DNA of 64,000 nucleotides, taken from the NCBI GenBank assembly GCA_021234535.1, contig CM037842.1, positions 11,896,404 to 11,960,403 on the forward strand, given 5' to 3'. Source of the stretch: Stichopus chloronotus. Taxonomy: Eukaryota > Echinodermata > Holothuroidea > Aspidochirotida > Stichopodidae. Positions 12,611-59,609 of this stretch are shown here, piece by piece; the stretch's first letter is position 1, and each line of letters begins with the position of its first letter. The position numbers and the translations under genes were made by a program. The notes under the pieces were generated by a model. It made no database searches. It worked only from the letters and a program-made list of their open reading frames with translations, and had not been told where the DNA came from.

Positions 12611-12619
12611 TATCGACAA

Positions 12620-14515: not shown

Positions 14516-14519
14516 TGAT

Positions 14520-15991: not shown

Positions 15992-15994
<3 letters not shown>

Positions 15995-16064
<70 letters not shown>
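15995..16064. repeat. (TA)n microsatellite
   Basis: Seventy bases of uninterrupted TA, about 600 bases beyond the recognisable part of the second Penelope-like element on its 5' side. Confidence 0.97.
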
Positions 16065-16067
<3 letters not shown>

Positions 16068-20420: not shown

Positions 20421-20569
20421 TAAATGATCTGAATCTTAATTTGGGTTGGCTACAAATAAAGCAGAGAATAAACATGAGAAATGTTATGCTTTTTGTGTTG
20501 CTTGCTAGCAGATGACACCTTTCTGTCTATAATCAGCCTTAAGCCATTTTAGACAATTTGTTTGTATGT

Positions 20570-21115
20570 ATCGAATTTGTGATATCTTCAATTGAAGTAT
20601 TAATATCAACAAATAAAACATATCGTCAAGTTCTTTCAATGATATCATCAATTCAGTTGCTTATGTCATCAAATAAATTGGAAATATCATTAAAACATTT
20701 CAACGCAAGTTTTGATATCGGTGAATAATTGACGATATCGCAAACTGTTACATATCTTGAACATATCTGAAGATATCAATGCATTAATTGTTGATATCAT
20801 TACTTCTTTTTTGGTAAGAAGCTTTTGATGATACCATTCAGTATATAGATGTATCATCCCTTAATTGTTAATATATAACCTTCTGTTTAATAATAACACT
20901 AATTTATCTCACAATATCAACAATTGATGTGCTGATATCTGCAATTAAACTATAGAAATTATCAAATTTCTAGAGATATCATCAAACTATTGCTGATGCC
21001 ATTAAATTATCAAATCCGGAATATCATCAAATGATTGTAGGTATCATCAAACAATCAGTGAAAGCGTTAAATATATGGTGATACGATAAAATGGTGATAT
21101 CATGAAATACGTAAG
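20570..21115. repeat. Degenerate array of GATATC-centred short repeats
   Basis: About 545 bases in which ATATCATCAA-like and TTGATGATAT-like words recur every 20-40 bases (AATGATATCATCAATT, GTTGATATCATTAC, ATGGTGATATCATG). Same vocabulary as 19030-19190. No coding frame. Confidence 0.7.
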
Positions 21116-23559: not shown

Positions 23560-23620
23560 GATCTTCATAGATTGATTTTTTCTCATGAATGAGCAATTGC
23601 AAGATATGAGATCCTTATAA
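23560..23620 (+). repeat. Dispersed short segment, copy c
   Basis: CTTCATAGATTGATTTTTTC then GAGCAATTGCAAGATATGAG; diverged relative of the segments at 6935 and 9510. Confidence 0.4.
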
Positions 23621-24225
23621 GAACTGGGTACATTTAGCTCAAGACACCCTGGAAGTGAAACTTCCTGCTATCGAAAGGGTTTGTAAAGCTGCAATTATCT
23701 TTGTAGTTGTAAACTCCGCTTGCACACTCTAATCAATGGTGGTTAGGTAGCACTGCCGGTGCCCGGCCTTCCCTCTGCCCAATATTAACTTCTAGGCTCC
23801 ACCTCTGTTTTAATAAGTATAATCTGCTGTACTTTAAATTAGGTGCTTGGTAAACATACTGTGTGTTCTATAAGTTAGTCAGTTACAAATTCCACCAAAA
23901 TATTTTCGTAACAAACATTAAGAAATGCATAAATATCACAAAATCTTAAGAAATGGATATCACCATTGAGGTGTGAACATATACTTGTCGGACTACCTTC
24001 AGTAAAAAACTATATTTTTTACTTTGCAAACGTGAGCTCAAATGAATAGCACATACTCGAAGAACTCTTAATGACTAGAAGGAAATGTTACATGCAAGCA
24101 CTAGGTGTCATTAAATAAATTTGATCCTATATCCGTTGACTTTGCAGATTTCTTTGGCTAAAAAATCGTAAATATTCACTCCCATTGGCTGTTTCATTTT
24201 CGTCGTATGGTCTTAACGTACTGTC

Positions 24226-24322
24226 ATGAATGTAAAGGTATACCTGTCGGTGTTGTTATCTCTGGGCAGTCTACAAATCACCGGATGTTCGCAGTACGGT
24301 TCCTCAGATACAAAATCGAGCA
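24226..24322 (+). CDS. Exon 1: start codon and signal peptide
   Basis: Begins ATG (MNVKVYLSVLLSLGSLQITG), a short basic start, a hydrophobic core and a small-residue region ending near Cys21: a typical secretory signal. The exon is 97 bases, ends in phase 1 at donor GTAAGT and joins in frame to the LRR N-cap exon. An ATTGG (inverted CCAAT) lies at about 24184-24188; no clear TATA box was seen. The start was chosen because it gives a signal peptide and correct phase. Confidence 0.8.
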
Positions 24323-27300
24323 GTAAGTCCTTTTCTTTTGTAGAATATCATTGCAGCATAACAACGAAACTAGGTCCTTACCGAAGAGGATAAGTTTTAC
24401 AAAGGACGCTTACTAAACTGTTATTGTGGTGTCTCTGCGTCCTGTGTTTCTCACGTAACAGACATTTGTTCGAACAATGTTTTTCACTGAGTTATAACAA
24501 TACAATGAAGGTATTACAGGAAATTAAAAAGTAAAGGACTTCTCCGAAATATTTTGTTATGCTTTTTATTTAGCTATAATTAAAATGTATATTTCAATTG
24601 GCTTCTACCACTATCACGTTTCGAGTTTCTGTAAATGGACAAACTAACATAACAACATGTTGTATCTCATCAGTTCCAAAAGCTTGCGGTAAAGATGGAA
24701 TATGTAACTGCCGGGTAGAGTTTATGGTGGATTGCTGGGACAGAAACTTAGATCATGTACCTCAAGATATACCGACAAATACCACATTCATGTAAGTAGT
24801 AGACTAATATACAATCAATGGTTTAAACTGGAATTTGTTGGAAGCGTTGAACGTGGACATTGCTTTTCACAGCATATTGCATGTCTCATAAATGCTCAAG
24901 TAAAGTTTTGCGAAGTCAAAATAGTTTATTTGCTTACCGTTCGCCTTCAATTTTTTCACAAACTTCCTACAACGTACGTAACGTCAGGGAGATTCTTGAG
25001 AATCATTTGCACAGTTATTGCTTCATGTTAATGTAACGTTATATATATTTAAACAATTGTTCTCGCTTGTTAAAGGGCCTCAGTTCCTCTCTCTGTTCCC
25101 CCCCCCCCCCCCTCGCAGAAACCATGGTAAAGGTAGCGTTTTATAAGCTGAGTTACGCCTTCGAATGTCGTGAAAAATGAAATAGGCCTATCAATAAAAT
25201 CAACAGAATTGATAACTTAGTTATTGGTTTGTAACTGTAGGTAATCTAACTACCATCGTTTGCTTCAGCAAAGATACAGGTTTTTGATTCTATCAAAAAC
25301 CTGTATGTTTAAACTAGACACTTTACGATTTATTCCGTAGTAATCAGAGCATAACTAGAAGGGATTTCCTTGAGAGAAAACAATTCACCAAAGCGAAGTC
25401 TAGCAGTTGCAGTTATACATACGTGGGGAAAGTAATTATAACCAACAAGCGTTGCTTTGTGAGCCAAATACTTTGATACTGAAAGAAAGAGTGAAAAAAA
25501 AAAGGATGCAAAAGTGACAAAAGGAATATAAAATATAATATAGTGAATGACATAATCCACGAAAGGAAATCACGTCAAATCATCATCCAAATCAAGTGCA
25601 TATTAATATTCAGACAGAAGGAGTTGAATATATACATTTATTACAATACATATTGATTTTTCTTTTATTTCCATATAGTAAAACTCAAACTAAATCATAA
25701 ACTCCTATTAAACTAAAAAAAAGGTAATACAGTAACTGACCACGCGACAAAAAGTGAATAAAAATCCTTTATATCATAAGTCAACAGAGTAAAATCAATG
25801 TTTTCGTCTGATGAGCATGCTTGTGGTTTAAATGTAAATGACAGTTGTACATGCGTTTCTTCCTTCAAAACAGCTTTATAGTAAGCTTATTAAGGTGACT
25901 GAAAACTCTTTGCAAAATTCTTTACTCTTTGCACATACTTGTGTACAGGAAGTAACACTAAACATTTTACATATTGTTTATTTGCTACTTGCAAAGAGAA
26001 ATCGTAAAATTTAGCCGTTAGTAGAAAATCATCAAGGGAAGACTGAAGTCACACAAGATATTCATGAGACGACCAATCACTTCTATGTCTTTTAGTTTTT
26101 GATATGATAATACCAGGTTAGCATCATCAAGAGTACATATCTCGTGGCATATGAAAAGATACTGTGCCAATATTAGGCATATAATAATATTAGGCAACAT
26201 AATTTTCAACAATGTAACACTTGAATTGTGAAAACCGCCTATGGCACTGAATATTATTTTATCACTATGAATGGAACTGTCAAATGGAATGGCTATTTTA
26301 CATATCAACACTCAATTGCATTATTATTTGCAGTGACTTGGGCAAAAACCAGTTATCATCAATCTCAAACTATAGATTCTCTGGTTTGAGTTCCCTGAAA
26401 CAACTGTAAGTATATTAGTGCTGTAGGCATATTGTTAAATTGCCTTAATTTCGATATAATGAACATTTAGGGATCGTTTCAGAAATGAAGCTTACTGACA
26501 AATCACACGAAGTAAAAAAATATTTAACATATATCGTCAACTTTGTAAGAGTAAGGATCCGGATAATTTTGGAGGGTTCGTTGTTTCTTCGTCTTATAAC
26601 TTACAAGGAACCCTTCACTTTGAATATACTTACGCGAAAAAAGATAATCTTCAAAATCTTTGAAATTATTCACTGCACTCATTTTCGTAATATCTCGTCT
26701 ATATTTCCTAATTCTCAAAGAGAAGGCAAATATCATTTTCTTTACATTAACAACATAACACACAACATAACATTACCGGGTATAGTTTACCAACGATTCA
26801 CTTCTAATCTACCTCTAATCAAATTTGTTTAACAGGAGATTTGAATGCAATATGAAAGCCTGTTCTAGGCTGCAAACAACATACCAGTGCATTTATCTCG
26901 ATAATTTACATTTACAGATGATACATATTTATAAAATAGAGACAGGCTCACCCGAAAACATTTTAATGCACGAAACATAAGATACAAAAATAAAATAAAA
27001 TGATATCAGCAACAGAGGCAGCGATTTGGAGAATAGAACAAAGAAGATAAAGCAATTTCGCTATATGAAGAAACCTGATTTCACACAAAACAAGGAAGTA
27101 ACTATTAAGTTGATCCACTCTCTATCTTAGAGAAAGTAAAAGGTGATGAAGTGTTTGAGGAAATCTTTGTGTCTACATTTTTTCTGAAAGAATAGGGAAA
27201 ACCTTAAGAAAAGCGTTGAAGACTATTTACTATTAAAATTAATGTAGTTGACTGTGTTTCTAATGATTTGTGGTACATGAAAGTGACTGCGTGTGTACTG

Positions 27301-30300
27301 GAAAACCAGAAAAGATAAAATTATGTGTGATCGTAACGTTTTCTTCATTTTTAAATGTACAAGCAAGGTTGTACATGAACGGAAATGACAGTAACTACCT
27401 TGAAAGGGAACGGGATTGGCATAAAATAGTAAAAACAGGAATATTATTTGAAGATTAACAGTTCTTACTATAAGCGCATACATAATGGATAGGCAACAGT
27501 GCAGGTCTAACTAGCGTATCAAAAACATGCTATTCAGGTCGTCAGTCTCCTTGGTAGGTATCGGAAGTTTTAGTATTTGGTGAAAGAAAGCACTGCATTT
27601 ACAAATAACCTATAAACTGATCACAGCATTGCTGCGTCAGTGATCCTGAGTTGTTTGACTAACTGAATATTCAATACTAGTATTCTTTCCATTGGCTGGT
27701 CAAAAAGAAAAGAAAACCGCTGATTTAAATGATGAAAACTGTCAACCACTATATTATCGTATTCTACACTTTTTGCCAGAAGAATTTGGAATCATATGGC
27801 AGAATTAACCATCTGAAACCTACTTATTTCCCCAGATTGTCTAAATGGAGCAACTGAAAGCCTTACCAAACTTTTGGAGATGAAATTCCAATGTTTTTAC
27901 TTTTTGCCTACGCATGTAATCGCTTTAAATATGACCTTGATTTCATAAAAAAAAATGCAACTACGTCTGGTCAACTGTTATTAAGCTTAGATTTCAAAGT
28001 GTAGTATTTCAAGTAGAACTAATTAAAATTACTATCAAAGAAATAACGAACAAAAAAAAAAAAGCAACAAACAAACGATCTCGCAATGTAAAGAAACTTG
28101 ATGTCACACAAACCACAGAAGTAACTATTTAGTTGATCCCCTATACTAGCAAAAGTAAAACATGATAAAGTGTTCGGAGAAATCTTTGTGTCTATATTTT
28201 GCTGATAAAAAGAATCTAACTACACGGCAGAACTGAACTTTGAACTTTCTAAGTGTACACAATTGGATCTGCAGTATGGGTATGACAGTTTAATTCTTTT
28301 CAGTAATATTTAAAAAGTAACCCTCCACTCAAGACACATTGCAAAGAAGAGAAACAATTGTAATTAGTGGAATATTAATTAGCGTTACATAATTAACACT
28401 AACAGCATTATGACAATACGTGTGACTAGCAACCACTTCATGCACTTTACCTTTGCATTAGATGTACATTTCTTGCCACATTTTTTTTTTGTCCACACGC
28501 CTATATAGTACGCTCTACTCGCGCGGTGCTGGTGATGTTGAAGGATTCTTGATCATAAGTAAATTATCTCCACCCAAACCCCTAACCTGTGACTGGATGT
28601 CCGTTTTAAATTTAAGCCAAACAATAATTTTAGCAGAACTGGCTCATGGGGTAAATGTATGAGAACATACATGTCAATAGCCTAGGCATCCCTTGACTTA
28701 ATGTAGACTAGCAGTAGTGTGAATGAAAGCTAAGCTTCCTGCTGTGGTTATAGGTATATTAGGCCTATTATAAGTATAGGCTTGGCATAATAACAGCCAT
28801 CACTAATATAAACTACCATGTAAACTACAGTGGCGGCTCAGTGATTGGTATAGGCAGAGAGTTGGTATAGGTGCGACGCGACCTTGGAAGTACCCTATAG
28901 AGGCGTGTTTTGCATGCAGAACGACTATGGTTTGCCAGGTGGACAGTGGCCATACAGGGTTAAGGGGTTATCGTAAAGGCTATGCGCTACAAGGAAGTAA
29001 ATGATTATCACGATGACATGTACATAGCCGTTGCAAAGAGCTATTCAGGCATTTAAGCCCATCACAGGCAGTTACCCCTTTCACATCACCAGCTTTCTCT
29101 CCTTTTTGATTTCGCTAATCATTTATCCAACCGACAAACAGTTCTCTGCTTGAAACTCCAGCTTTACGCTTTACCTGTTCCTATCAATCACCTTGTCTGT
29201 CGGCCACCAGACTGCTGCCAAATCGATGTGCTTGAATGAGACTGTACTAGACACCTTGTATGCGATATAGCTGATCCGGTCCAACAGGGTACGGCATGTA
29301 CACCGTTGCCAGTTTGACTTACTCAACCTATTTATTTCCTGAACAAGAAAATATGCAACTGCCAAAATAAAAACCGTTATGAATCAGTATTCAAAACAAA
29401 TATAACCACGAAATTTCGTTCCCGTGTTCATGATTTTTTGCGAAACAATGAGTTGTAGAGCAAACCACTGAATGTGGACCAAGAAACACTGAACGAAAAA
29501 ATAAGAGGCGTGCATAGGTACTGTCCATGACGTGATGGACAGTATAATAAGTTGAGTGGGTTGATACATCATACGAGCAGAAAACCAGATAACCAGAAAA
29601 TACATCAGTTCCCAATACGAATCAAGGTAGTAATTGTGTGTTTCTTCTTGTGTCCTTCATTGGATCGTTGTGCAGAAATGGTAGACCTCAGTTGTATCAT
29701 CGTTTTGAACCAGAAGTAAGACTTTCATTTTACAAAACAATACACTAAAGATGGTGCCGTATCCTCTTCAGGGATGTTAAAATGTCATTTCACTCACGAA
29801 ATGTACTAAAGAAAGATAAATACTATTTCTTTTCAGCATGCTTTCTAGTGTTCATATGTTTTATCTGTTAAATACTTGAGTTGATAACAGAATAAAGCAC
29901 TAGATTTATTTTAACACCACAGAACTGAGAAACTATTAAGCTTTTGTTAAGACTCTAAGCTATTCATATTAAATGAAATTATTGTTTGCAGTTACTTGAG
30001 TAGAAACCAGATTTTATCCACCTCAATCAATAGCTTCATAGGACTGAGTTCATTGGAAACACTGTAACTATGTTTTTGCTACTTCTCTGTTAATTTAAAA
30101 AGAGTGCACTAAAACTTTGATAACTTGACCTGTATGTAAGAATGTTTTATGTTCAATTACAGAACTGTCATATCAAATGGCTTATTTTAAACTAATGGCG
30201 TTCAATTAAATTATTACTCATAGAGACTTGACTGAAAACAAGATTTCATCAATTCCAAATGATACCTTCAAATGTCTGAGTTCCCTGAAAAATCTGTAAG

Positions 30301-33300
30301 TATTCTATTTATTTTATTGAGTAGTAGATTGTCGACTAACGCTGACTTGGGTTATGATAACTGAATAAAGCACTAGATTTATTTTAACACTACAGAACTG
30401 TGAAATTATTCAGCTGTTGTTAAGACTTTAAGCTATTCATATTAAATGAAATTATTGTTTGCAGTTGCTTGGTTAGAAACGAGATTTTATCCATCTCAAG
30501 CAATAGCTTCAAAGGGCTGAGTTCATTGGAAACACTGTAAGTATATTTTTCATTCTTCTCTGTAAATTTAAAAAGAGTGCACTAAAACTTTGATAACTAG
30601 GCCTATATGTAAGAATGTTTTATGTTAAATTACAGACCTGTCAAATCAAATGGCTTATTTTAAACTAATGGAATTCAATTAAATTATTACTCATAGAGAC
30701 TTGACTGAAAACAAGATTTTATCCATTTCAAATGATACCTTCAAATGTCTGAGTTCCCTGAAAAATCTGTAAGTATTTTATTTATTTTATTGAGTAGTAG
30801 ATTGTCGACTAACGCTGACTTGGGTTATGATAACTGAATAAAGCACTAGATTTATTTTAACACCACAGATCTGTGAAATTATTCAGTGGTTGTTAAGACT
30901 TTAAGCTATTCATATTAAATGAAATTATTGTTTGCAGTTACTTGAGTAAAAACCAGATTTTATCCATCTCAAGCAGTAGCTTCAAAGGGCTGAGTTCATT
31001 GGAAACACTGTAAGTATATTTTTCATTCTTCTCTGTAAATTTAAAAAGAGTGCACTAAAACTTTGATAACTAGGCCTATATGTAAGAATGTTTTATGTTA
31101 AATTACAGACCTGTCAAATCAAATGGCTTATTTTAAACTAATGGAATTCAATTAAATTATTACTCATAGAGACTTGACTGAAAACAAGATTTTATCCATT
31201 TCAAATGATACCTTCAAATGTCTGAGTTCCCTGAAAAATCTGTAAGTATTCTATTTATTTTATTGAGTAGTAGATTGTCGACTAACGCTGACTTGGGTTA
31301 TGATAACTGAATAAAGCACTAGATTTATTTTAACACCACAGAACTGTGAAATTATTCAGCTGTTGTTAAGACTTTAAGCTATTCATATTAAATGAAATTA
31401 TTGTTTGCAGTTCTTTGAGTAGAAACGAGATTTTATCCATCTCAAGCAATAGCTTCATAGGACTGAGTTCATTGGAAACACTGTAAGTATATTTTTCATT
31501 CTTCTCTGTAAATTTAAAAAGAGTGCACTAAAACTTTGATAACTAGGCCTATATGTAAAAATGTTTTATGTTAAATTACAGAACTGTCAAATCGACAGCT
31601 TAACTGGATGCATTAAAAAAGTATTATCGTATCATTAAAGAGCTGTTGAATGGCATGCTTGTTGTCAGTTATTTGCAAGCCATGTAATTTCCAGTCATTT
31701 ACATTCCATTTTGCAATTGCTTACAGATACTTGGCCGAAAATCAAATTTCATACCCTCCGAACAATTGTTTAACACCTCTAATTTCACTGGTAGCACTGT
31801 GAGTATATTATTCCGGATACTTAGGTATCAAAGATTACCATAGGTGATAACTACAGCTCTCTCTCTCTCTTCAAAATGAGCAAAATGCAAGGAAGTCCTA
31901 ATTTGCCCATTATCGTATGACGTTGAACATTTAAACAAAGCTCACTATCACCAGGATGAGAGGTACTTCTTAAACATTACCATGTATGTAAAATGAAAAA
32001 AAAATATTAACATCAAAAGAAAACAATTGTCGTCAGCAAAGCACTTAAGAGAGAGAGAGAGATTCCAAACAGCTGACCGAGCAAGTACGCAAAGCCTGGT
32101 ATTAAAAATTGGAAGGCTTACAATAAACGAGTAGCTTAAACTTAAAGACAGTCACTCTCTTCACCCCAAGCTACATTTTTGCTGGTGGTAAGCTGTTCTC
32201 AATCGGTTATGCTATTTTTAAATAGTTTTTGTACATTTGGTCAAATTCGCTGATTTTTGTAGTAAAAAGAAAGCAATGTTGCCCTAAAACTGGTATTTCC
32301 AGTATATCTCGAGAAGTATTTTAGCCTTTAATGCAAAATTGTGCAAGGAATTTCCTGAGAATGTAATATTCAAGGGATATCAGTTTTATAGTAAAGACAG
32401 TGAAATTTGATATAAGAGTAAAAAAAAAAGGCAATTTTGCCCCCAAATTTGTATTTGCAGCGTATTTTGAGAACTGTCAGACCAATTACCTTAAAGATCT
32501 GTAAGGACTTACCTGAGAACACATTGTTCAATATAATATTACCGTAATAATAAATCCAGTAAAATTTGGTAATTTTTGAGGAAAAAAATTGCGCCAGTAT
32601 ATCTTGTGAGCTATTTGAGCGTTTCATGCAAACATTTGCAAAAACGTACCTGAGAATGTAATAATCAAGGTTTATTACTTTTATAGTAAAGAGTGCGAAA
32701 TGTACTTGCTTTAAAAAAAAAATGCCCATTTTTTTGTTGTATTTCTAGCATATCTTGAAACTTATTAGGCAAATTAACTTATAGCTTTGTAAGTACTTAC
32801 CCGAGAACAGACTGCCCAATAAAGATTACTGTAGTGGCAATCCAGTGAAATGTCAGTGTTGATTTTTGAGAAAGCCAATTTCGCCTAAAATTTGGATTTC
32901 TGCCATATCTCGAGGTCTAATTGAGTATTATTCGCAACATATAGCAATGCCTTCATATGAACACACAGATACAACACATCACTCTTATAGTCAAAACAAT
33001 TTCAACTGGTCCCTGTGTATTTAAAAATTCCTTCCAATGATGAGAACGTTGTTTTTAAATCCAAAAATAACTTTTAGCAGAATTAGGTCCTGCACATGTA
33101 AATAGCAATCTAATGTGCAAATAACCCATACAGGGATGTTCTTATGTCCTGCCCATAACCCTAAGCACTAGGCCTAACCTGTACGGAGTAACCCAATGTT
33201 AGAATTGTGTTATGTAGCGTAACATGCACAGATACTTATTGTTTTCATTACTTGAGCCTTAGTGGTGACACCATGGTAGGATTAAGTTTGCTACCTTACA

Positions 33301-44997: not shown

Positions 44998-45030
<33 letters not shown>

Positions 45031-51000: not shown

Positions 51001-54000
51001 TAATGTTTTTAATAATATTTCAATTTTAATAGTTCACATGTGAGAATGCGCCCTTTAGTTCCACTGCTGTGAGTTGGAAGCCACTGGCTTCCAACTCAAC
51101 TCAACAAAAGAAAATAAACAAAGTGATACCAATTAAGTATGAACATCAGAAAAACAAAACTTTACAACATTTATTTACAGCGAAAAATGTGAATGAAAAA
51201 ATAAGTAATAAAGAAACCAAAAAAAAAAAAAAAGGAGAGAGAGTAGGATGAAATGGGAAGAGGGAGAAGGAAGGAGATGACTGAATTTAGGGAAGTCAAA
51301 AAGGAAAATGGGATAAAGAAGGTACTCTACATCACGTGTAACAGACAAAAGAAAATAGGAATGAAATTACTCGTTACCATGCCAACTGATTAGATCGAAG
51401 AAAAGTATGGATATGGAGTGGAGTTGTGACATATAGAATCATGTATTTGATTAAAAAATATCAGTATTGCGCTCTATACTATTTAACCAAGATGATATTT
51501 TAAATTTACTTTTAATTTTTAAATCACTTTTAATGTTTTCGTATGATTTACGTCACTCCTGTTTTCTAGCTGATGATAGCAAGTGCACCCGAACATACTT
51601 CACCGGTGACACAGGGGTTGGAACTTAAAATAAGTGTAACATTGTCAAATTGATTATCTGATCATTTATAAATATTCAATGGCATTCAATTTATAACATC
51701 TCAGTGTATTTAGAACACAGAAATGTTTTTATACGATCATTCCTTATACCAGTTACAGCTTACATCTCAGCTATTCATTTGTATCTTTAATGTTATTTCT
51801 AGAATGTAATTCCTCGTAATTTGTTTTGCAGTGACTTGAGTAAGAATGAATTCTCACAAGTGCTACCATCTTTTAAAAGTGTGGGTTCACTTAAAACTTT
51901 GTAAGTGGTATTCCTTTTTTTCATTGAGCTCAAACAGATATTAGTGTTATTATGGAAAAGTTCTCATGTACAAGTAACATTTGTCACTTGCTTGTACTTT
52001 GCCACAACTAGGAGCAACTACTACGGCTTCAAAGGTTAGCTTTAGTAATCGTAAATGTGATTTCATTCATAAGGGAAGTTTGAGTTGGCGATGTATTTTA
52101 ATTCAAAACCACATTATTTCTTGCCTGCTTAAAGATGATATTTGTACACTCTTGTCCATAGCTACACAATGATGCTTCGGTTTGCCTCTTATGCATACAT
52201 TTTACGTCCAATTCATTGTATTTCTGAGTTGCTTTATCATTTTGAAATTTTACTGTATAAAATGTTTGTAACGACTAACAAATTTTCTTTTCACACACTA
52301 TATGTCTGATTCACCATATACCACAGGCTCCTAAGAGAAAACAAGCTTTACCGTCTCGACGCTTGGAACCTTCGAGGTGTTGCAAGAGAAGACGCGTTTG
52401 TGTATGGAACATTGACTATTAACTTACCATGTGGCAAAGGATATATAACATTTCCCACATATATCACTTTACAGTTGTCTTGACTAAATTTCCTCTCATC
52501 TAATGCATCAAAATCAAACCCGTTCAGTCCTCTTAACTGAATGTACTGTAAGTCGGGGGTAATGTTTGTGTTAAGTTCTTAATTCTGTGTTTTTGTAAAG
52601 GTTATCTTTCTCTTGTTTTATAGGAAGTATTTTTTGTCGCACAATGGTATTGGCACATTGATCCAGACAGGAGTTGCTAAGGAATTGCGTTGAAGAAATA
52701 AAGTACACTTCAGACATAAGCGTCCAAATATCGATCCATTGTGGGCAATGGATATACCCGGAAGACACCAAATACATAAAATAAACCCAACACAAAGTGT
52801 GCTCGTTTTTGTTTTCTGCCGATAGTATTAGGTGCTACATGTGCCTCGTCATTTGCAACCATCTTAATTAAGTTCCATCTTAGTCTCTATAAAATACATT
52901 TGCACGTTCCTTTTATTAAAATTTCAGGGATCTGTCAGATAATGGCATAAGTCAGATTACATCTGATTCACGCCATCCATTTACGTGGAACAACGTGAAA
53001 ACTCTTTTCCTACAGAGAAATAAACTTAAAATCATCAAGCAATACGCGTTCATTGGCTTCCATGGACTTCGTTTGTTGTGAGTATTTGAAACTGCAATTC
53101 TGCGAGGATACTTGACTACATAATGTAATTGATTTTTTTTTTTTGTTACTTTCATTTAATTCAGTTTTCAACCTTTTCTTTCTGTGTAGAAAAGAGTTAA
53201 ATTTGGTGAAAGTTAAGCATTTAGTCTATACTTGCGATTTGTGCAATTTGTAATGTTGTATATGACGTTAGTCATATACACCATATGAAGATTTTTTTTT
53301 TTTTTTTTAACACGGTATCGGCATCTTTACACTAGAGATATGCTGGTATCTTGGGTCTGCGATCAATCGACTTATTTGTATTAAACCAGTACAAATATTC
53401 CTTTCGTTATTATGTTTTTTTTTTCTTTCAGAAGCCTATACGGTAATCAAATCCATACCATAGAAGATAAAGCGTTTGTAAATGTTTATCTGACGTATTT
53501 GTGAGTATTTGTGACTAAAATGCTTTTGATGTATATTCTATCATGAATTCTATGAAAACTTATAATTTAGGAAGTCAAAAAAAAAAAAAATAGGAAATGT
53601 TCTCTGTTGATGTAAAATGAAAAAAATTGTAAGTAGAAAGTATTGTACTTTCCATGCCGCCATTCGCAGTAACTAGGCAGCTCTTTTGTTCAGTGGTTCA
53701 CACCGTTTTGGGTTCACACCGAGTCATGTGGTTTGCTCTACAATTGAGCTCATTGTGTTGAAAGAATCCCGTGAACGGGAATGAGCTTCTCGTTATATTG
53801 TGTTTACGTTTATTTTACGTTTGGTGAAACTTGTAATGGTATACGTACACTACGACAATTAGGTGGCACAAAATGTTAGAACTAATCAATTCATTGTGGT
53901 ATTCACTTTCGTGGTTATTTGTACTTTTCAGTTAAATACAGTAGAACTTATCAACCATCGTGTTTCTTCATACAGATTGCTGGTTCAAAATAACCTATCC

Positions 54001-57000
54001 ACCATTACCGGGAACTGGTTCGTTTCTACTAAACTCGAACAAGTGTTGGTATTTTAAAATTGTTTTAGCTAAGGTCTCAAATTTCAAGAAATTTCACTTC
54101 TTATTTCAATGTCTCAAAGTACCCTGGCATTTTTTTTATCTACAAACATTTTTCCTTTAACTCGAGTCCTGGCGTCATTCAACAGCTTAAATCTTTTAAG
54201 CATTCAGCGGCAAAAATATATGTATGATGAAACTGTTACAATTACTACATTTTCATTCTTCATTTTCTATTCCCTCTGTAATTTAGACACTTTTATGGTA
54301 ATAAGATAGCCAACGTTGAAGCAGATTTCTTGAAGCAGATATCAAATAAAACGTTATTGTAAGTAGAATATCAGATTACAAGTAAAATAATACACCAACA
54401 TATTGTACGTTCTAATGGAAATTTGCAAATCTGACCTGTCGCAAATCTGACCTTATGCAAATTTGACCTGTTGAACATTTTTCTTCTGATTTCAAGTCTT
54501 GTCACTAAATAAAATCTTACCCACGTAATTTTGTTCTGCGCCGTTAACATTTGCACAGCTATTACGTAATTACTGAAATTAAGAAGGTGACCTTCCACTT
54601 CCACCTTCACTACCACTGTAATATGTCAATTTCTATCAGATATTTTACCTGTGACCATTTCCATGTCTTACCGAAAAACCCTTTTCATGACAAGTTGTAA
54701 GTATCTCAAATATTCTTTGCACTTTTTTTGTCAAAGCCATCTAGCTAGTATCATATCAAAAATAAAAGAGCTATTTTGTTTGCACCGCAGTCAATTAGCT
54801 ATGGCAAATATTATATCCCTTGTCAAGACATAAAACTTTTTAGTTCGTAATACTAGTCTGTGTCTAGAATAATTTGGGATCATGCACCACTGTTGTGGCC
54901 TCTGTTTCATGACAAAAATAAAAACAAAAATAAAAACAGAAATGAACTGTCACGTTAACTTTTTAGCGATAAAATTACGCAAGAGTATTTTTTGTTGTAA
55001 AGTAAGATATCATCAACAAGTTAATGATAACTGATAAATATATAAAGTTTAATTACTGAGATTACCCATACACTTCTCTTACTTCTACTCTTCCTTATCC
55101 GTGATAATTTAAAAAAAATAAATAAATGTTGCATGTTCTTCACCAGAATCTGCGTCAGTCGCTCTTCGATGCCATCCATAAATATACCGAAGAATGCTGA
55201 AATCGCAACGGAATTAGAAAAAAATGGCTTCGAATGCATTTTACGTTGGGCAGGTGAAAAATATGGAGGGCATCTTTCTTACCGTCTTCTTCAGGACAAT
55301 AGGCTCATTCGCCCAGAGTCAAATCATACATGTACGCCATGTCCAATCGGTACTTATGGCAACGGAGATGCACCCGGCGTATGTTTTCCTTGTCATAAAG
55401 GTGAACTTTGACGTGCCTAAAAAAATGAACAACTAGATGTAGTAAACAGTTGTCTCATGACGATAATATTACTATCCAAAGTATAGTTATCCCTTATATT
55501 AAAATGTTACATCAAAATTGAACCTGTTCTTTTGGGTTATATGTTATTTTCCCTTGAAGTTCCTCTCGAGTAATTGACTGCGATTCCTATCATCCTTAGT
55601 TTGATCAGAGGAAAATCCAGTAAAAAGATCCCTAGTATTTTGGTAATGTATAATATATACACGCGGTAAAGAGAAAACATGTATATCAATTCACATTTTA
55701 GAATGCATTAATTGAATACCTGTGATGCATTTAGTGAAGGTAATTGCAACTGTCATTTTATGATCATGCATGCTTAGAAGATTAAAACAATCAGAAGCAA
55801 TTTTACTATAATGTGCTAGTTTTACTATGTCACGTCATTTTCGTATTGAAGGATACACAAAACCCCTCTGATTTGGTGAGTTTATCTATTCAATAAGTGT
55901 CCACAAAAGCCAAGTGTCCTTTAATGGTGCTAATTAACGTATATGTTCATTTTTTAACATGTATCTCACCTGTAATTTCAATGTAGGGGGATTTTATCAA
56001 GATGAAGTAGCCCAAACAGAGTGTAAAAAGTGCAACGTAGGCCTGTACGTCAAAAAGAAAGGAGGAACGTCGTCTAAAGATTGCGAAGTTTGCCCCGATG
56101 GAACCAACCAATCTTTACATGCCGGTTATCGTGCATGTTACTGTAAGGAAGGATTTGCACGCACTGATCGATATGGACCTTGTCATCTGTGCATTCAGAA
56201 AGGACTTATATGTGAAGAGGACTATCAAACTCTTTCACCTGGTTACATGTGGAATTGGAGCATTCCTGGTGCAAATCTAATTGAATATAAGAAATTTGTT
56301 GAAAACATCAAGATGAAAAGCTATCCTCACACTCCAAATACAACTTACACAGGGGGCATACCGCGTGAATTTAAATGTCCAGTCCCTGACAGTTGCCCAA
56401 ATAATAATGACAGCATAGCTGGCAACTGCGCTGTTGGATACATGGGTTGGTTGTGCACAAAGTGTGTCCCTGGATACTATTTGGTGCTCAAATCTTGCGT
56501 GCCCTGTTCAAAGCTTTTATTTGTAATGTTAGAATGCTGTATCTTTTTGGCAGTATGCTCTTTGGCTTGTGTTCTCGTAGTTTGGAGATTAAATCAAGGG
56601 GAAGCGAAACGATATCAGCCCCGCTCCCTGTTTGATGTTATGACTGCCAGGATTAAAATACTCCTTGGACTCTATCAAGTAGTAGGGAGACTACATATAT
56701 CTTCACGTGGTAGAACTTGGACCAAATCATTAGTTTCCGTGTGGAGATTCCTCACGACTTTAGAAGTCAATGTCTTAATTCTGTTCCTCCGTACAAAATG
56801 CTTCGATCTAAACTCTGAATTAAACTCAAAGAAAGAGTTCGTAGTTGCTTCGACCGCACCTTTGATGATAGCGTTGGTCCCATTCATAGTCTATCATATC
56901 AGAAAAATGTGCATCCGAATTAGTTATGCCAATACTGTTTACTCGACCTATCAGTCCAAGTTTCAAAATCTTAAAGACTCTTTGTCTTCATGCGTTGTCG

Positions 57001-59600
57001 TTCTTTGGTTTATAATTTACCCAACAGTAGCGTCATTTATCTTTAGCCTGTACCCAATGTCATGTAAAACGTTTTCCCTTGACCAAAATTACACCTATAA
57101 CATAACACGTCTTCGATCTGACTTCGACATGGATTGCGCAGGACTAAGAGAGTATCAAATCGCTGCATACGTTCTCACAGTCGCCTACGTCATTATGTTT
57201 CCAATGGTGCTTTTGTATAAACTATACAAGAATTATTTGCACTCTCCGAACTATTTTTCTGGAATTGATGATGCCCCTATCGACAATACCAGTGACTCGA
57301 ATGGTTTCTCTATTGCCAACAACTCTCCTACTCCGAGATGGTGCCACTTCTTCTGTGAAAATTATAAGGCGAAGTTTTGGTTCTGGGAGATTGTTGAACT
57401 GTCCCGGAAAGTTACCCAAACTCTTCTTCTTACTCTGTACGGTTGGGAGAATAGAGCGACTGTTCTTTTGACAACGTTTATCTCTGTGTCTTTTCTCTTG
57501 CTACATGTTGGGTGCCAACCAATGCAGAGTTCATATGAACATGGTCTACAGGTAAATTTATATAGATTTGAACATAGAGCTGCTACTGAGGAGAGATTTC
57601 ACTGTGAACTGGGGTTTACGCAGTGAAGGTCACATAGTGCGGTAATCTCTCTTTTGTGTCGTTTTTTTTTTTACCTTACACGGGATTAAAAAATAAACAA
57701 CGTGACAGTGTAGTGTGATAGAGTTCGCAGTTAGACTTGGAAGCGTTCTCTGCTCCACCAACTTTGCCAGTCTTCAGGGAAATATATAATTATTTTACCT
57801 TTTGGTACTCGGTGGCGTGTATGACAATATAGCATTTAGGTTACAGATCAAAACATAAACAAGAATCCATACCTGATTATTTCAAGAGCCATCCAGAACG
57901 TCCTTTCTAGTATGCCAAAAAATGATCCAATCAATGGATTAAGGATTACGTAACTGCTATTGCTAGGTGAATAATATTGTACAGGAATTGCCAAATAAAG
58001 GCACGGAATACCCTTGGGCCAACGACATTGCTTACCTGTACTCGATTTAACGGATTTTTAGTCTGGAATATGAGTTGCAAATTTGTCAGTGAAAGTCAAA
58101 TTTAGCGTAATATATGTCATAGCCACCTCATAAAAAAGTGTTTAAGCAGAATGTTTTGCATACATGAATATACACATCCATTCCCATTTGTCTGTTTGAT
58201 TTTAAGTAACGAGGATTGACTGCTATGCTTCCTGCTAGACTGAATTTTATATGACCAACAAAAATGCCCAGACTGGAAGGTGATTGTATAGTTTTCCCGG
58301 AGATTTTGTGAGAGATGATCGTTTCCCTTATCACTTTCTATCCCCTTAAACACTGACAAGAACAAAGGTAGAAGACCAGGCTATCACCAGTATTACTCAT
58401 ATGCCAGTTTTAAGGTATTAGTAGTAATTAAATTTTCCAATTAGAATTTTCCCGCCAGTCTCCTACTCAGTAGCAGCTCTCAGATTTGAACAACTCCTGT
58501 ATACTTGTGTAATATAGATATTGCGTCATTATTTAATGAATGCAGTCTGAATTTAACACTGACGTCTCTCAAAATTACTTTAAAAGTAATGACTTTCAAA
58601 AGTAATGTACGTTTCGTTTTTCTTTACTTTTTTACCTTCAATGAAGACTATGCCAACAACATACAAAATCAAAATCTCACTTAATTTTCATTAAGAAATA
58701 ATTGAAACCATCAATACGATACCAACTAACTCTGATCTCAAGGAATGTCCGACATGGTCTTTAGCTCTATTTCAGTATGTTTCATGTTAGGTGCAAGTGT
58801 TTTAGTCACCATTCGTATTTCCTTTTTTTCCATCATTTGCTGTTTGACAATTCGTAATATCTGCTTTTGACGTATTTGCCTATCACTACAGTTGTTTTCT
58901 TTGACTGTGACCTTTGTCAACGTTCTTGTTGAGGCCATTTACTTCAACGAAGAAAGTGAAGGCCCGATTTCAGTCTTTATGGCTTTGCTAAATAGCGTAA
59001 TGATAGCTATCATGGCAGGTAAGGCACAAGAAGAATGAAACACTAAAATATTAGCTGTCATTTATTTTTTGGAAGGGGGACGGACGAATGCACTGCAGCT
59101 TGATAAAATCAAGGATTCTAGTACGGAAGAACTTATAGAGCACTTCGTCAAGTCACAGACGTTCTTTTGTAGTTTCTTCGTACCATATTTCCTTATTAAT
59201 TTGTCTCATTTTCTGAATGTTTAAAATATCAATTGCATGATATGGGAATCAATTGAAAGAAAATACATTAATTTGGCATTATCTTTACCTGTAATAATAT
59301 ATAGGTCCAAGTAAAATATACAAAGACTGCTGCTACACTGCTACACTTATATGTTATGACCCTTTAACATTGGCCATAGTGTCGACTTTAATGATTTATT
59401 GTCTTAGCTCTGGTAATAAAATGTCGACCACACTATTTAATTAAATGTATTATTGTCTTGACTTTTTCTAACGAAAGCCAAAATACCGCTCTTACTTTTT
59501 AACATTCACAGGTGAATTGTTGATCCTTGTCCTCGTGCGTGCAATGAGAGTAATATTTACAAAGCTGATGAAGAGACCACGTGATAGTATCATTCAATAA
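24226..59600 (+). CDS. Multi-exon LRR / Cys-rich / polytopic membrane receptor-like gene (34 exons, gene span)
   Basis: Assembled by eye from GT-AG splice sites and reading phase: 34 exons give 4,320 coding bases, 1,439 residues plus stop, with no internal stop. Order: signal peptide (1 to about 21), LRR N-cap (about 34-71), about 28 LRRs (72-742), C-cap-like segment (743-800), GCC2/GCC3 or TNFR-like cysteine repeats (about 815-1020), then about nine hydrophobic segments (1022-1422) and a short basic tail. LRR exons are mostly 72 bases with phase 2 introns both sides, as is known for LRR hormone-receptor genes. The membrane part has no recognisable DRY or NPxxY motif, so it is not an obvious class A GPCR; it resembles a polytopic module found after GCC2/GCC3 repeats in other eukaryotic proteins. 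Role inferred: cell-surface receptor or channel-like sensor with an extracellular LRR domain. Weakest points are the donors of exons 25 and 28 and whether two further LRR exons are used. Confidence 0.85.
24674..24791 (+). CDS. Exon 2: LRR N-terminal cysteine cap
   Basis: 118 bases, acceptor CATCAG, donor GTAAGT, entering phase 1 and leaving phase 2. It encodes a C-x5-C-x-C-x6-C pattern (CGKDGICNC then DC) followed by LDHVPQDIPTNTTF, the usual LRRNT-to-first-strand transition in extracellular LRR proteins. Confidence 0.85.
25274..25306. repeat. Perfect hairpin, 15-bp stem, 3-base loop
   Basis: ATACAGGTTTTTGAT (25274-25288), loop TCT, then its exact reverse complement (25292-25306). Lies in the intron between exons 2 and 3. 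Confidence 0.92.
26334..26405 (+). CDS. Exon 3: LRR 1
   Basis: 72 bases, phase 2 to 2, acceptor TTTGCAG, donor GTAAGT. Encodes DLGKNQLSSISNYRFSGL, a canonical 24-residue LxxLxLxxNxL repeat. Confidence 0.88.
27055..27200 (+). repeat. Diverged duplicate pair, member 1
   Basis: CACACAAAACAAGGAAGTAA, AGTTGATCC and GAAATCTTTGTGTCTA match the segment at 28080-28215 in the same order. Confidence 0.65.
27541..27920 (-). repeat. Interspersed repeat, copy 2 (inverted)
   Basis: The reverse complement matches 38640-39000 closely, including GCGTAGGCAAAAAGTAAAAA, GGTTGACAGTTTTCAT and AATATTCAGTTA. Lies in the intron between exons 3 and 4. Confidence 0.75.
28080..28215 (+). repeat. Diverged duplicate pair, member 2
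   Basis: Second copy of the segment at 27055-27200, about 1,020 bases downstream in the same intron, with comparable AGAAATCTTTGTGTCTA. Confidence 0.65.
29992..30063 (+). CDS. Exon 4: LRR 2 (array type A)
   Basis: 72 bases, phase 2 to 2; YLSRNQILSTSINSFIGL. Donor GTAACT instead of GTAAGT, slightly weaker than its copies. First and most diverged type A exon of the 473-bp array. Confidence 0.85.
30224..30295 (+). CDS. Exon 5: LRR 3 (array type B)
   Basis: 72 bases, phase 2 to 2; DLTENKISSIPNDTFKCL. Acceptor CTCATAG, donor GTAAGT. Type B repeats carry a cysteine in the variable part. Confidence 0.87.
30465..30536 (+). CDS. Exon 6: LRR 4 (array type A)
   Basis: 72 bases, phase 2 to 2; CLVRNEILSISSNSFKGL. 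Exactly 473 bases after exon 4. Confidence 0.87.
30697..30768 (+). CDS. Exon 7: LRR 5 (array type B)
   Basis: 72 bases, phase 2 to 2; DLTENKILSISNDTFKCL. Exactly 473 bases after exon 5. Confidence 0.87.
30938..31009 (+). CDS. Exon 8: LRR 6 (array type A)
   Basis: 72 bases, phase 2 to 2; YLSKNQILSISSSSFKGL. Exactly 473 bases after exon 6. Confidence 0.87.
31170..31241 (+). CDS. Exon 9: LRR 7 (array type B)
   Basis: 72 bases, phase 2 to 2. Encodes the same peptide as exon 7 (DLTENKILSISNDTFKCL), so the duplication is recent or the copies are being homogenised. Confidence 0.87.
31411..31482 (+). CDS. Exon 10: LRR 8 (array type A)
   Basis: 72 bases, phase 2 to 2; SLSRNEILSISSNSFIGL. Last exon of the array, 473 bases after exon 8. 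Confidence 0.87.
31727..31798 (+). CDS. Exon 11: LRR 9
   Basis: 72 bases, phase 2 to 2; YLAENQISYPPNNCLTPL. Acceptor TTACAG, donor GTGAGT. Confidence 0.83.
32250..33010. repeat. Degenerate tandem repeat, about 150-bp unit
   Basis: About five diverged units, each with a GCC-aaa-TTGGTATTTC, AGTATATCTCGAG, ACCTGAGAA and TTATAGTAAAGA-like segment (starts near 32280, 32445, 32590, 32720 and 32880). Lies in the intron between exons 11 and 12. Unit lengths vary. Confidence 0.6.
33592..33663 (+). CDS. Exon 12: LRR 10
   Basis: 72 bases, phase 2 to 2; YTNNNTLPTLPSNMFEDQ. Acceptor after a long pyrimidine tract (CCTCAG), donor GTATGT. Confidence 0.83.
34502..34570 (+). other. Open 69-base candidate exon without clear LRR consensus
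   Basis: Flanked by a good acceptor (TATTTAG) and a strong donor (GTAAGT) and open in phase 2 (KWYLCRRLNHGSCVECDS). TACTTGTGTAGAA recalls the start of the LRR exons (TACTTGAGTAGAA). It may be an unused, decayed or alternative exon; not in the model. Confidence 0.35.
34898..34926. repeat. (GT)n tract running into poly-G
   Basis: GTGTGTGTGTGTGTGTGT followed by about 12 G. Similar poly-G or poly-C runs occur at 1267, 6489, 6677, 7073, 8760, 13006, 25089 and 40765. Confidence 0.9.
35300..36080 (+). mobile_element. Decayed LINE fragment, same family as 45-48 kb
   Basis: Plus strand, in broken frames: KTKDHLLIE, EKRQTNFAGG, IDYKKAY (about 35.6-35.7 kb) match the fingers-palm part of the LINE at 47 kb, and INGLDLPNIRKMSGTDISEG (about 35.94-36.0 kb) matches its GLDLPNI motif. 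The catalytic region between them is deleted. Confidence 0.7.
37570..37585. repeat. GC hairpin with TTCG loop
   Basis: GCGCAC-TTCG-GTGCGC in AT-rich intron. Very stable if transcribed, but no terminator function is expected in this kind of genome. Confidence 0.7.
38630..39300 (+). repeat. Interspersed repeat, copy 3
   Basis: The longest copy, about 670 bases, in the intron between exons 12 and 13. It links the blocks seen separately in copies 1 and 2. Confidence 0.75.
39667..39735 (+). CDS. Exon 13: LRR 11 (23-residue form)
   Basis: 69 bases, phase 2 to 2; DLSGNKLSKVPFVLEDL. One residue shorter than the 24-residue repeats. Acceptor TTCCAG, donor GTGAGT. Confidence 0.83.
41121..41192 (+). 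pseudogene. LRR exon with destroyed 5' splice site
   Basis: Good acceptor (TTACAG) and a perfect 72-base LRR (YLRENKLSLLPAKLFEGV), but where every other copy has GTAAGT the sequence reads CTAAGT, so the canonical GT is gone. Read-through meets TAA at once. As it is 72 bases and phase 2 to 2, skipping leaves the frame intact. I left it out of the gene model. Confidence 0.7.
41416..41487 (+). CDS. Exon 14: LRR 12
   Basis: 72 bases, phase 2 to 2; YLSKNQLSTLPTKIFAGL. Acceptor TTGCAG, donor GTAAGT. Confidence 0.87.
41656..41727 (+). pseudogene. LRR exon lacking a 5' splice site
   Basis: Acceptor TTGCAG and an intact LRR (YLSENQMSSLSASLFVGS), but the expected donor position (41728) reads TAAAAA. 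No GT stands in the right phase nearby. Skipping is frame-neutral; excluded from the model. Confidence 0.65.
41892..41963 (+). CDS. Exon 15: LRR 13
   Basis: 72 bases, phase 2 to 2; SLSGNQLSSLPNKIFDGL. Duplicate partner of exon 17. Confidence 0.87.
42214..42285 (+). CDS. Exon 16: LRR 14
   Basis: 72 bases, phase 2 to 2; HLNGNQLSSLPTELFVGL. Duplicate partner of exon 18. Confidence 0.87.
42666..42737 (+). CDS. Exon 17: LRR 15
   Basis: 72 bases, phase 2 to 2; YLNGNQLSSLPIKIFDGL. Nearly the same as exon 15, 774 bases downstream of it. Confidence 0.87.
43016..43087 (+). CDS. Exon 18: LRR 16
   Basis: 72 bases, phase 2 to 2; LLNENQLSSLPTELFVGL. Nearly the same as exon 16, 802 bases downstream of it. 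Confidence 0.87.
43283..43354 (+). CDS. Exon 19: LRR 17
   Basis: 72 bases, phase 2 to 2; YLSKNKLSSLPTEVFKSL. Acceptor TTTCAG, donor GTAAGT. Confidence 0.87.
43747..43818 (+). CDS. Exon 20: LRR 18
   Basis: 72 bases, phase 2 to 2; HLDSNKFTTFPKVIFKNL. Its 3' part and following intron are duplicated at 44095 onward. Confidence 0.85.
44095..44127 (+). pseudogene. Fossil of exon 20 (3' half with donor)
   Basis: About 33 bases match the 3' end of exon 20 (TTTTTAAAAATCTG, then AAGCT and GTAAGTGTAGCATAAG), followed by intron sequence like that after exon 20 (GCCACCTC, ATAAAACGTAAATTTTC). The 5' half and acceptor are missing. Confidence 0.65.
44438..44509 (+). CDS. Exon 21: LRR 19
   Basis: 72 bases, phase 2 to 2; DLSKNQFLSLPTKLFEDL. 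The next intron (about 5 kb) holds the microsatellite and LINE. Confidence 0.87.
44818..45118. repeat. ATT/ACT trinucleotide microsatellite, left of LINE
   Basis: About 300 bases built from TATTAT, CACTAT and AGTATC triplet variants. Long isoleucine-rich frames on both strands here are artefacts. It touches the 3' end of the LINE. Confidence 0.9.
45119..48170 (-). mobile_element. LINE-type non-LTR retrotransposon, frameshifted
   Basis: Minus strand. Recognisable in order: FLPTTWKLFSGILADQINEH and the fingers motif KGSRPGCRGTKDQLLIDK (about 46.9-47.1 kb), FAVEWIDYKKAYKSVPLSWI, IRRGIFQGDSISPVLFC (about 46.7 kb), the catalytic box as YMDK (46587-46598), GLDLPNIERIRDADICGG, KYLGIL, then DDIHRIYLPQKDSGRGLKE, a zinc-knuckle-like CRMCNEKDGTVAHI (about 45.7 kb) and RPDVVVIDKETQ (45.42-45.47 kb), the last suggesting a C-terminal restriction-like (PD-D/ExK) endonuclease. 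The C-terminus GTVHILRRILYLPESG ends at stop 45163-45165. At least four frameshifts. Clade not assigned with certainty. Confidence 0.85.
48176..48335. repeat. ATT/ACT trinucleotide microsatellite, right of LINE
   Basis: Same composition as the tract at 44.8-45.1 kb (ACTATTATCATTACTATT, later ACTACTACT), next to the 5' end of the LINE. Confidence 0.85.
49108..49153 (+). pseudogene. Fossil LRR exon with internal deletion
   Basis: Contains TTGAACATCAACAAGTTTG and CCTAGCGAACT followed by GTAAAT, recalling exons 20 and 23, but only about 46 bases remain and no acceptor is seen. Confidence 0.5.
49524..49595 (+). CDS. Exon 22: LRR 20
   Basis: 72 bases, phase 2 to 2; ILSGNSLSTLPSNTFQGL. Acceptor TATTTAG, donor GTAAGT. 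Confidence 0.85.
50197..50268 (+). CDS. Exon 23: LRR 21
   Basis: 72 bases, phase 2 to 2; YLNINNFTKLPKDIFKGL. Acceptor TTTCAG, donor GTAAGT. Confidence 0.86.
51070..51098. repeat. Perfect hairpin, 13-bp stem, 3-base loop
   Basis: TGAGTTGGAAGCC, loop ACT, then GGCTTCCAACTCA. Lies in the intron between exons 23 and 24. Confidence 0.92.
51832..51900 (+). CDS. Exon 24: LRR 22 (23-residue form)
   Basis: 69 bases, phase 2 to 2; DLSKNEFSQVLPSFKSVG. Acceptor TTTGCAG, donor GTAAGT. Confidence 0.84.
52327..52401 (+). CDS. Exon 25: divergent LRR 23 (donor uncertain)
   Basis: Acceptor CCACAG is clear and LLRENKLYRLDAWNLRG fits an LRR. The end is uncertain: GTATGG at 52402 is the only reasonable phase 2 donor and gives 75 bases, so the junction with exon 26 reads ...DAFV-DLSDN. 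The frame stays open to a TGA at about 52483. Confidence 0.6.
52928..53077 (+). CDS. Exon 26: two LRRs in one exon
   Basis: 150 bases, phase 2 to 2, acceptor TTTCAG, donor GTGAGT. Encodes DLSDNGISQIT and LFLQRNKLKIIKQYAF, so two repeat units, the first slightly irregular. Looks like loss of one intron. Confidence 0.83.
53432..53500 (+). CDS. Exon 27: LRR 26 (23-residue form)
   Basis: 69 bases, phase 2 to 2; SLYGNQIHTIEDKAFVNV. Strong pyrimidine tract before the acceptor (TTTCAG); donor GTGAGT. Confidence 0.84.
53976..54044 (+). CDS. Exon 28: LRR 27 (weak donor)
   Basis: Acceptor ATACAG; LLVQNNLSTITGNWFVST. Phase 2 exit needs the weak donor GTTGGT at 54045, giving 69 bases like exon 27. A better-looking GTATTT at 54049 would be phase 0 and break the frame. 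Confidence 0.7.
54287..54358 (+). CDS. Exon 29: LRR 28
   Basis: 72 bases, phase 2 to 2; HFYGNKIANVEADFLKQI. Acceptor ATTTAG, donor GTAAGT. Confidence 0.84.
54640..54696 (+). CDS. Exon 30: short C-cap-like exon
   Basis: 57 bases, phase 2 to 2, acceptor TATCAG, donor GTAAGT. Encodes YFTCDHFHVLPKNPFHDK: the first cysteine after the LRRs and the LP..PF ending of a last repeat, as at the start of an LRR C-terminal cap. Confidence 0.75.
55147..55400 (+). CDS. Exon 31: C-cap remainder and first Cys-rich repeat
   Basis: 254 bases, phase 2 in, phase 1 out, acceptor CACCAG, donor GTGAAC. Begins ICVSRSSMPS, has a central FEC, and ends TCTPCPIGTYGNGD...CFPCHKG, the C-x2-C-x3-G-x-Y pattern of GCC2/GCC3, ephrin-receptor-like or TNFR-like modules, which continues in exon 32. 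Confidence 0.85.
55987..57551 (+). CDS. Exon 32: Cys-rich stalk and most of the membrane module
   Basis: 1,565 bases, phase 1 in, phase 0 out. Protein residues 847-1368. First about 175 residues are cysteine repeats (GFYQDE, ECKKCNVGLY, CEVCPDGT, CYCKEGF, CPVPDSC, CTKCVPGYYL). Hydrophobic segments follow at about 1022-1046, 1097-1116, 1131-1150, 1181-1201, 1236-1258, 1310-1331 and 1336-1355. Conserved-looking cores are RIKILLGLYQVVG after the first segment, YPTVASFIFSLYPMSC, and FWFWEIVELSRK before the sixth, the latter resembling a W-E-x-x-E-x-x-R-K motif of related polytopic proteins. The frame runs 75 bases past the donor GTAAAT before stopping; the splice is chosen because exons 33 and 34 continue the module. 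Confidence 0.88.
58892..59018 (+). CDS. Exon 33: membrane segments 8 and part of 9
   Basis: 127 bases, phase 0 in, phase 1 out, acceptor CTACAG, donor GTAAGG. Encodes LFSLTVTFVNVLVEAIYF and VFMALLNSVMIAIMA, both strongly hydrophobic. Confidence 0.82.
59512..59600 (+). CDS. Exon 34: last membrane segment, basic tail and stop
   Basis: Acceptor TCACAG, phase 1. Encodes GELLILVLVRAMRV and a basic tail ending RPRDSIIQ, stop TAA at 59598-59600. The stop lies inside an AATAAA (59596-59601). Confidence 0.8.
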
Positions 59601-59609
59601 ACGAGGGCA

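Follow-up and report, generated by a model that had tools for sequence, protein, structure and literature searches.

A leucine-rich repeat ectodomain joined to a nine-helix membrane module in a multicopy gene family of the sea cucumber Stichopus chloronotus

The leucine-rich repeat (LRR) receptors of animals are known with either one membrane span or the seven helices of a G-protein-coupled receptor (GPCR). A 64,000-nucleotide stretch of the Stichopus chloronotus genome (hereafter the window, from contig C14 of the 719-Mb genome) holds a long array of LRR exons that is followed by cysteine-rich repeats and a polytopic membrane part, and it raises the question of whether these belong to a single gene and, if they do, what kind of receptor is encoded. 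We conclude that the LRR part and the membrane module are one gene and that this gene very probably does not encode a GPCR of the LGR type.

The gene occupies positions 24226..59600 of the forward strand, with 33 exons and 4245 nt of coding sequence for 1414 amino acids, the sole stop codon standing at its end. All 32 introns have GT-AG borders, the frame is continuous throughout, and exons 3 to 30 are each preceded by a phase-2 intron (28 in all). The order of domains is an LRRNT-like cap, 27-28 LRRs, an LRRCT-like part, ephrin-receptor-like Cys repeats, DUF7630 and a nine-helix module, and we regard this architecture as practically certain. Its parts are as follows (TM, transmembrane helix).

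24226..24322, + strand: exon 1, signal-peptide-like start, judged by reading and with no homologue match
24674..24791, + strand: exon 2, LRRNT-like cap, matching protein P0007 by tblastn (E 4.7e-7), sub-threshold for Pfam LRRNT
26334..54358, + strand: LRR exon array, 25 single-LRR exons (69 or 72 nt, phase 2) and a double exon
52928..53077, + strand: the double-LRR exon, detected via homologues only
54640..54696, + strand: degenerate last LRR, or start of the C-terminal cap
55147..55400, + strand: LRRCT-like part and first Cys (ephrin-receptor-like) repeat
55987..57551, + strand: main membrane exon, with Cys repeats, DUF7630 and TM1 to TM7
58892..59018, + strand: exon 32, TM8 and the beginning of TM9
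59512..59600, + strand: exon 33, remainder of TM9, short tail and stop, with no homologue match

Each single LRR exon is entered in phase 2 and encodes one repeat; together with the double exon and the degenerate cap exon (54640-54696), the 25 single exons make up the total of 27-28. The homologue search and the Pfam scan of the window protein were carried out with a 1364-amino-acid version of the model in which the double-LRR exon is absent. In that scan LRR_8 was matched at E 1.2e-112 and Ephrin_rec_like at 24.1 bits, above its cut-off of 23.1, while DUF7630 (24.9 bits, cut-off 27) and LRRNT (15.4 bits, cut-off 25.8) fell below theirs. There was no match to any GPCR or 7tm family, nor to TIR, at E <= 10. 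An earlier note on this DNA had proposed one joined frame with about 28 LRRs, Cys repeats before the membrane part, about nine hydrophobic segments and a membrane part outside the known GPCR families, and all of these proposals hold in the present model. The earlier model apparently counted 1439 amino acids, 25 above ours, and may have included a decayed LRR-like stretch that lacks a GT donor.

Could two adjacent genes simply have been fused by the earlier reader? We consider this most improbable, since the exons are phase-compatible over the whole length and the same order recurs both in homologues and at paralogous loci; no separation of LRR and membrane exons into distinct genes appeared. 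A search with the membrane part, with length limits of about 750-2390 amino acids that favour long proteins, returned 52 proteins, 49 of which have a precomputed LRR domain. A profile search gave 65 module-bearing proteins (77 matches minus the 12 LRR-only proteins P0097-P0108), and an LRR domain was precomputed in 40 of them. The other 25 are 375-798 amino acids long, and seven that were inspected in full seem to be single exons or incomplete genes. The nearest named relatives come from Apostichopus japonicus and Holothuria leucospilota, and corals share the LRR-module order, so that homologues with the domain order of the window gene exist in both groups. Among the relatives, P0023 is an 868-amino-acid protein with both LRRs and module on a contig of only 2884 nt, 2604 of them coding; since this leaves no room for introns, the contig looks like a transcript.

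The same association is seen within the S. chloronotus genome. When the 6 kb upstream of 10 chosen module loci (from a total of 73) were searched with homologues, sense LRR exons were found at nine (all except L042) and an LRRCT/Cys exon likewise at nine (all except L040); at least one of the two kinds was present at all 10, and there were no antisense matches. A less sensitive motif scan of 10 paralogous loci found spliced LRR exons at seven, or eight when one unspliced stretch is counted.

What, then, is the membrane module? The relative P0041 (798 amino acids), folded with 80 sequences, gave a model with a mean predicted local distance difference test score (pLDDT) of 85.3, in which the end of the LRR part and the Cys region are followed by nine helices of at least 19 residues, the fourth and fifth being separated by a beta hairpin. 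The TM1-TM7 stretch of the window (56511..57551, + strand), folded alone, yielded seven helices in a P0041-like pattern (pLDDT 85.2, predicted template-modelling score 0.83), and TM8-TM9 were recognised by sequence comparison only. The membrane part contains eight distinct stretches with a mean hydropathy of at least 1.4; in the model, one of these is not a span but a short pair of helices. Invariant Cys columns are numerous in the 80 aligned rows.

With an extracellular N-terminus and nine helices, the C-terminal tail, which is short in the window protein, would be cytosolic and the TM4-TM5 loop would lie outside. The putative topology agrees with the two Cys and two N-glycosylation sequons that this loop carries in the window protein, and with the positions of EF hands in two distant relatives, after TM1 in P0112 (1288-1357) and at the C-terminus in P0113 (2077-2145), both of which would be cytosolic. 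EF hands on the cytosolic side would also point to a role for Ca2+ in the module, and their occurrence at two different places suggests repeated gain of Ca2+ sensing.

Although the earlier note had described the module as poorly characterised, its relatives can now be assigned, by profile to PF06011 and by layout to the core of the cysteine repeat modular proteins (CRMPs); the polytopic character stands. PF06011 is the Pfam TRP family known from fungi (profile length 426, curated cut-off 28.5), and it was the recurrent membrane match among the 33 proteins that we scanned, the window protein included. Eleven of them matched at E <= 0.1 (5 of 8, 2 of 4, 2 of 10, 2 of 10 and 0 of 1 in the respective sets). 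Only P0063 (32.5) and P0064 (36.3), both from sea cucumbers, exceeded the cut-off, over profile positions 142-411, and the other nine remained below it. The match covered positions 138-411 in eight of the eleven, and shorter parts in P0052, P0110 and P0112. On these profile matches the module is probably related to PF06011, a family that is TRP-like and fungal. Several points weigh against this reading. The 33 proteins were hand-picked, three of them because PF06011 had been precomputed for them, and five of the eleven matches come from one A. japonicus clade. In P0076 a partial ammonium-transporter match (21.1 bits) outscored PF06011 (16.5 bits), and the window protein itself had no PF06011 match at E <= 10. 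Because it does not reach the profile score, we call the window protein a relative of PF06011 and not a member. The Pkd2 protein of Schizosaccharomyces pombe is placed under PF06011 here by our own assumption.

Compared with the fungal members of the Pkd2/Flc type, the sea cucumber proteins are alike in the profile match over the cut-off in two relatives, whereas the window copy is unmatched and LRRs and Cys repeats stand in place of the ML-like TRP_N ectodomain (PF02221), which is described as common among fungal PF06011 members in the part of PMC8618638 available to us. The nine-helix membrane domain is shared with S. pombe Pkd2, which passes Ca2+ upon membrane stretch according to the available text of PMC11277609. 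The second likeness is to CRMPs, which in Toxoplasma and Plasmodium have Cys/ephrin-receptor-like repeats followed by nine TMs (PMC9815656, PMC9670195, both in part), and which are greatly expanded in Chromera and Paramecium, where the accessible portion of PMC9815656 suggests environmental sensing. In the present family, too, a large ectodomain ends in Cys-rich repeats of the ephrin-receptor/EGF-like kind immediately before the membrane core, and there are nine helices (all nine in P0041, seven in the TM1-TM7 stretch of the window). The likeness to the CRMPs of apicomplexans and ciliates is one of layout, drawn from descriptions and not from a comparison with CRMP sequences. Their ectodomains are of MAR/Kringle/EGF type, whereas here the ectodomain is an LRR arch and the genes are animal, intron-rich and members of a large family. 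Among animal receptors, the long LRR ectodomain with cysteine caps recalls Toll-like receptors; these have a single membrane span and a TIR domain, in contrast to the nine helices and the missing TIR match of the window protein.

We propose that the LRR arch would read an external ligand or surface, as is presumably usual in LRR biology, that the Cys-rich stalk of ephrin-receptor-like repeats and DUF7630 would relay the resulting change, and that the nine-helix module would emit a signal, most likely Ca2+. The module could itself conduct cations, opening in response to ligand or force via the stalk, or it could trigger exocytosis that depends on Ca2+, as has been proposed for CRMPs. We infer both the Ca2+ or channel output and the recognition role, whether immune, microbial or self/non-self. 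The chain as a whole, that is, a germline-diversified LRR surface sensor acting via a Cys stalk on a Pkd2/CRMP-like module with Ca2+ as output, appears to us about evenly balanced between true and false. Channel activity of the module is somewhat less probable than that. The roles of stalk and module in this chain are argued from homology to PF06011 and from the layout common to this family and CRMPs. A more specific version is doubtful: the diversified LRR sensor would directly gate a Ca2+ channel of Pkd2/CRMP type. On this view the module would be ancient and common to fungal channels and the host-contact sensors of protists; corals and sea cucumbers would have retained it, and sea cucumbers would have made of it a large repertoire with LRR arrays remodelled through exon-pair duplication.

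Against a channel speaks the lack of any convincing solved structural relative of the module by Foldseek or VIA, in searches that covered the first seven helices; because no solved structure matches, no pore can be pointed out. Moreover, LRR arrays serve adhesion too. A receptor that conducts no ions, in which the module links binding by the LRRs to partners inside the cell or to regulated exocytosis, is a serious if lesser possibility. It would fit the CRMP-like combination of a nine-TM core and Cys/ephrin-like repeats (as far as the available descriptions go) and the name that P0063 bears in its source, 'cysteine repeat modular protein A-like', and a relation to PF06011 does not prove conduction. 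However, the EF hands in relatives and the precedent of Pkd2, as partially documented, favour Ca2+, and the window protein has only a short cytosolic tail. The LRR diversity could also serve cell-cell matching in adhesion or in self or gamete recognition, with the module as an anchor or scaffold, but nine conserved helices under purifying constraint exceed what an anchor needs, and we think this improbable.

Least probable, together with the fusion of two genes, is a divergent LRR-GPCR. The idea is not without foundation: several H. leucospilota relatives are named LGR4 or LGR5 by their source (other relatives are called 'uncharacterized'), PANTHER called the Toxoplasma protein TgCRMPa GPCR-like according to the available part of PMC9670195, and GPCR chains stand first in the Foldseek ranking and recur in several weak VIA matches. 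LRR-GPCRs such as LGR4/5 and the glycoprotein hormone receptors nevertheless differ from the present protein, which has nine helices and no 7tm match. In a profile search of solved structures, the matches listed (60 of 510) included LRR-type entries; the one match of a single-sequence search (E 0.21) was not used.

The window gene belongs to a large family. With the module exon as query, 89 matches were obtained in the genome. They correspond to at least 73 loci, of which 68 lie on contigs C1-C23; 82 of 92 candidates were scored, so that these counts are lower bounds. The full query is matched in one stop-free block at 51 loci, or at 59 when two-piece loci are included. We built a tree of 115 sequences, to which the genome contributed 30 of its 73 module loci, namely the window copy with 29 paralogues, and the homologue set 85 of its 87 members; the homologues are a selection from which most isoform near-duplicates were omitted, P0052 and P0110 were dropped as too short, and the root was placed on P0112/P0113 by choice. 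The window falls in a clade of 17 (support 1.0) with 15 other S. chloronotus copies and one further record, and with no member from A. japonicus or H. leucospilota. Other S. chloronotus copies group with A. japonicus proteins, to which the copies of this genome are nearer in the module tree, and corals and P0093 lie outside the remaining 109 sequences. The module family has thus radiated within the lineage of S. chloronotus. Some copies (C14 versus C171 and C262) look like haplotypes of each other, and some of the 15 in the window clade may be haplotypes as well. The earlier suggestion of a lineage-specific receptor therefore applies to the expansion and fails for the LRR-module combination, which corals and further records also carry.

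Another module copy, in opposite orientation, lies just past the end of the window (C14:11962348-11963915, - strand, locus L040), matched in two overlapping pieces and with sense LRR exons within 6 kb upstream. The genome also contains at least 173 LRR_8 matches (150 of 1298 candidates scored), many of them in single open frames of 500-1300 amino acids, which form a separate large LRR gene set.

How the LRR part changes while the module is kept can be seen from the nearest paralogue, whose module lies 76 kb upstream on contig C14 and is 88% identical to that of the window, with dS (synonymous divergence) of 0.20 and a ratio of nonsynonymous to synonymous divergence (dN/dS) of 0.29. We examined 26 kb upstream of this module; the first LRR exons presumably lie beyond. 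The last three LRR exons of the paralogue correspond to those of the window (18/22, 14/22 and 18/23 identical residues), and the surroundings of the double-LRR exon 52928..53077 show 80% DNA identity. In contrast, for each of the 10 central LRR exons of 72 nt the best-matching window exon shares 13-15 of 23 residues, and for an eleventh, of 75 nt, it shares 11. The paralogue array has grown by a tandem exon-pair unit of about 2.5 kb, with copies 93-94% identical. The window array has its own duplications, and also stretches in decay:

29882..31600, + strand: tandem unit in four copies, spacing 473 nt, each with one or two LRR exons
41747..43108, + strand: second tandem duplication, with copies of an LRR exon pair set 774 and 802 nt apart
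39350..39415, + strand: decayed LRR-like stretch without an in-frame AG...GT exon
41121..41192, + strand: decayed LRR exon, acceptor retained, GT donor absent
41656..41727, + strand: decayed LRR exon, acceptor retained, GT donor absent

No match to the 473-nt unit is listed in the 26 kb of the paralogue, where it could lie further upstream. The three intronic LRR-like stretches, in which either the exon frame is unusable or the GT donor is missing, look like dying exons. In the central LRR array, exons are gained by tandem duplication of exon pairs and lost by decay, while the module is conserved.

Two results count against reading more into this turnover. One proximal block, introns included, has only 68% DNA identity, which is within the central range of 66-78%; the contrast between a fast centre and a slow proximal part is therefore moderate and rests on exon order and on the private duplication units. 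In addition, the exon and intron divergence of the four 473-nt units (six pairs) does not show positive selection: exons differ by 0.042-0.097 and introns by 0.015-0.101, exon divergence being the higher in four pairs and the lower in two, from small samples. Copy number and LRR turnover are what would be expected of recognition receptors, and they are not proof of an immune role.

The phase-2 LRR exon scan, which is partly circular because it was trained on 21 exons of the same array, gave matches on the sense strand only, and five mononucleotide-shuffled windows gave none at the same threshold. One weak sense match lies outside the gene (62035-62100, 11.1 bits). Within the array, 38618-39289 is 89-91% identical to C14:11852042, 11854548 and 11856970 inside the LRR array of the paralogue, and is probably a repeat element carried within the duplicating unit. 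An intronic array of simple repeats with a spacing of about 15 nt, open on both strands, occupies 44735-45158, with a second, weak match at 48158-48347.

LRR receptors, CRMPs and PF06011 channels are each known; their combination in one animal family with exon-array turnover appears to be new, as we did not find it in the open-licence literature to which our searches were confined. There we found no paper on DUF7630 and none combining TRP, GCC2 and Ephrin_rec_like. Titles on PF06011 name fungi or crustaceans, GCC2_GCC3 with leucine-rich repeat and transmembrane led to Aplysia FGFR and fungal GPCRs, and CRMP with leucine-rich repeat led to Plasmodium. Among the sea cucumber matches listed, no title concerns an LRR-module family, and the part of PMC13428168 at hand names none. 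Database entries for the family do exist, unnamed or under the names of other families. If true, a large family with LRRs set on a nine-helix module of Pkd2/CRMP type would represent another route from recognition to signal. CRMP signalling could then be studied in an animal that is not a parasite, and the sea cucumber repertoire, with dozens of copies, would be a candidate source of lymphocyte-independent immune diversity.

Rfam yielded no family at or above its gathering score in the window (1..64000). Remains of mobile elements are present both inside and outside the gene. Two fragments of RVT_1 reverse transcriptase, below the cut-off, lie at 46167-47206 on the reverse strand, in the intron between the LRR exons at 44438 and 49524. 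Upstream of the gene, a GIY-YIG domain at 4493-5326 (E 1.7e-6) is located within about 4490-5850 on the reverse strand, beside a reverse-transcriptase-like stretch with what we take to be a YIDDI motif, and the whole presumably represents the remains of a Penelope-like retroelement.
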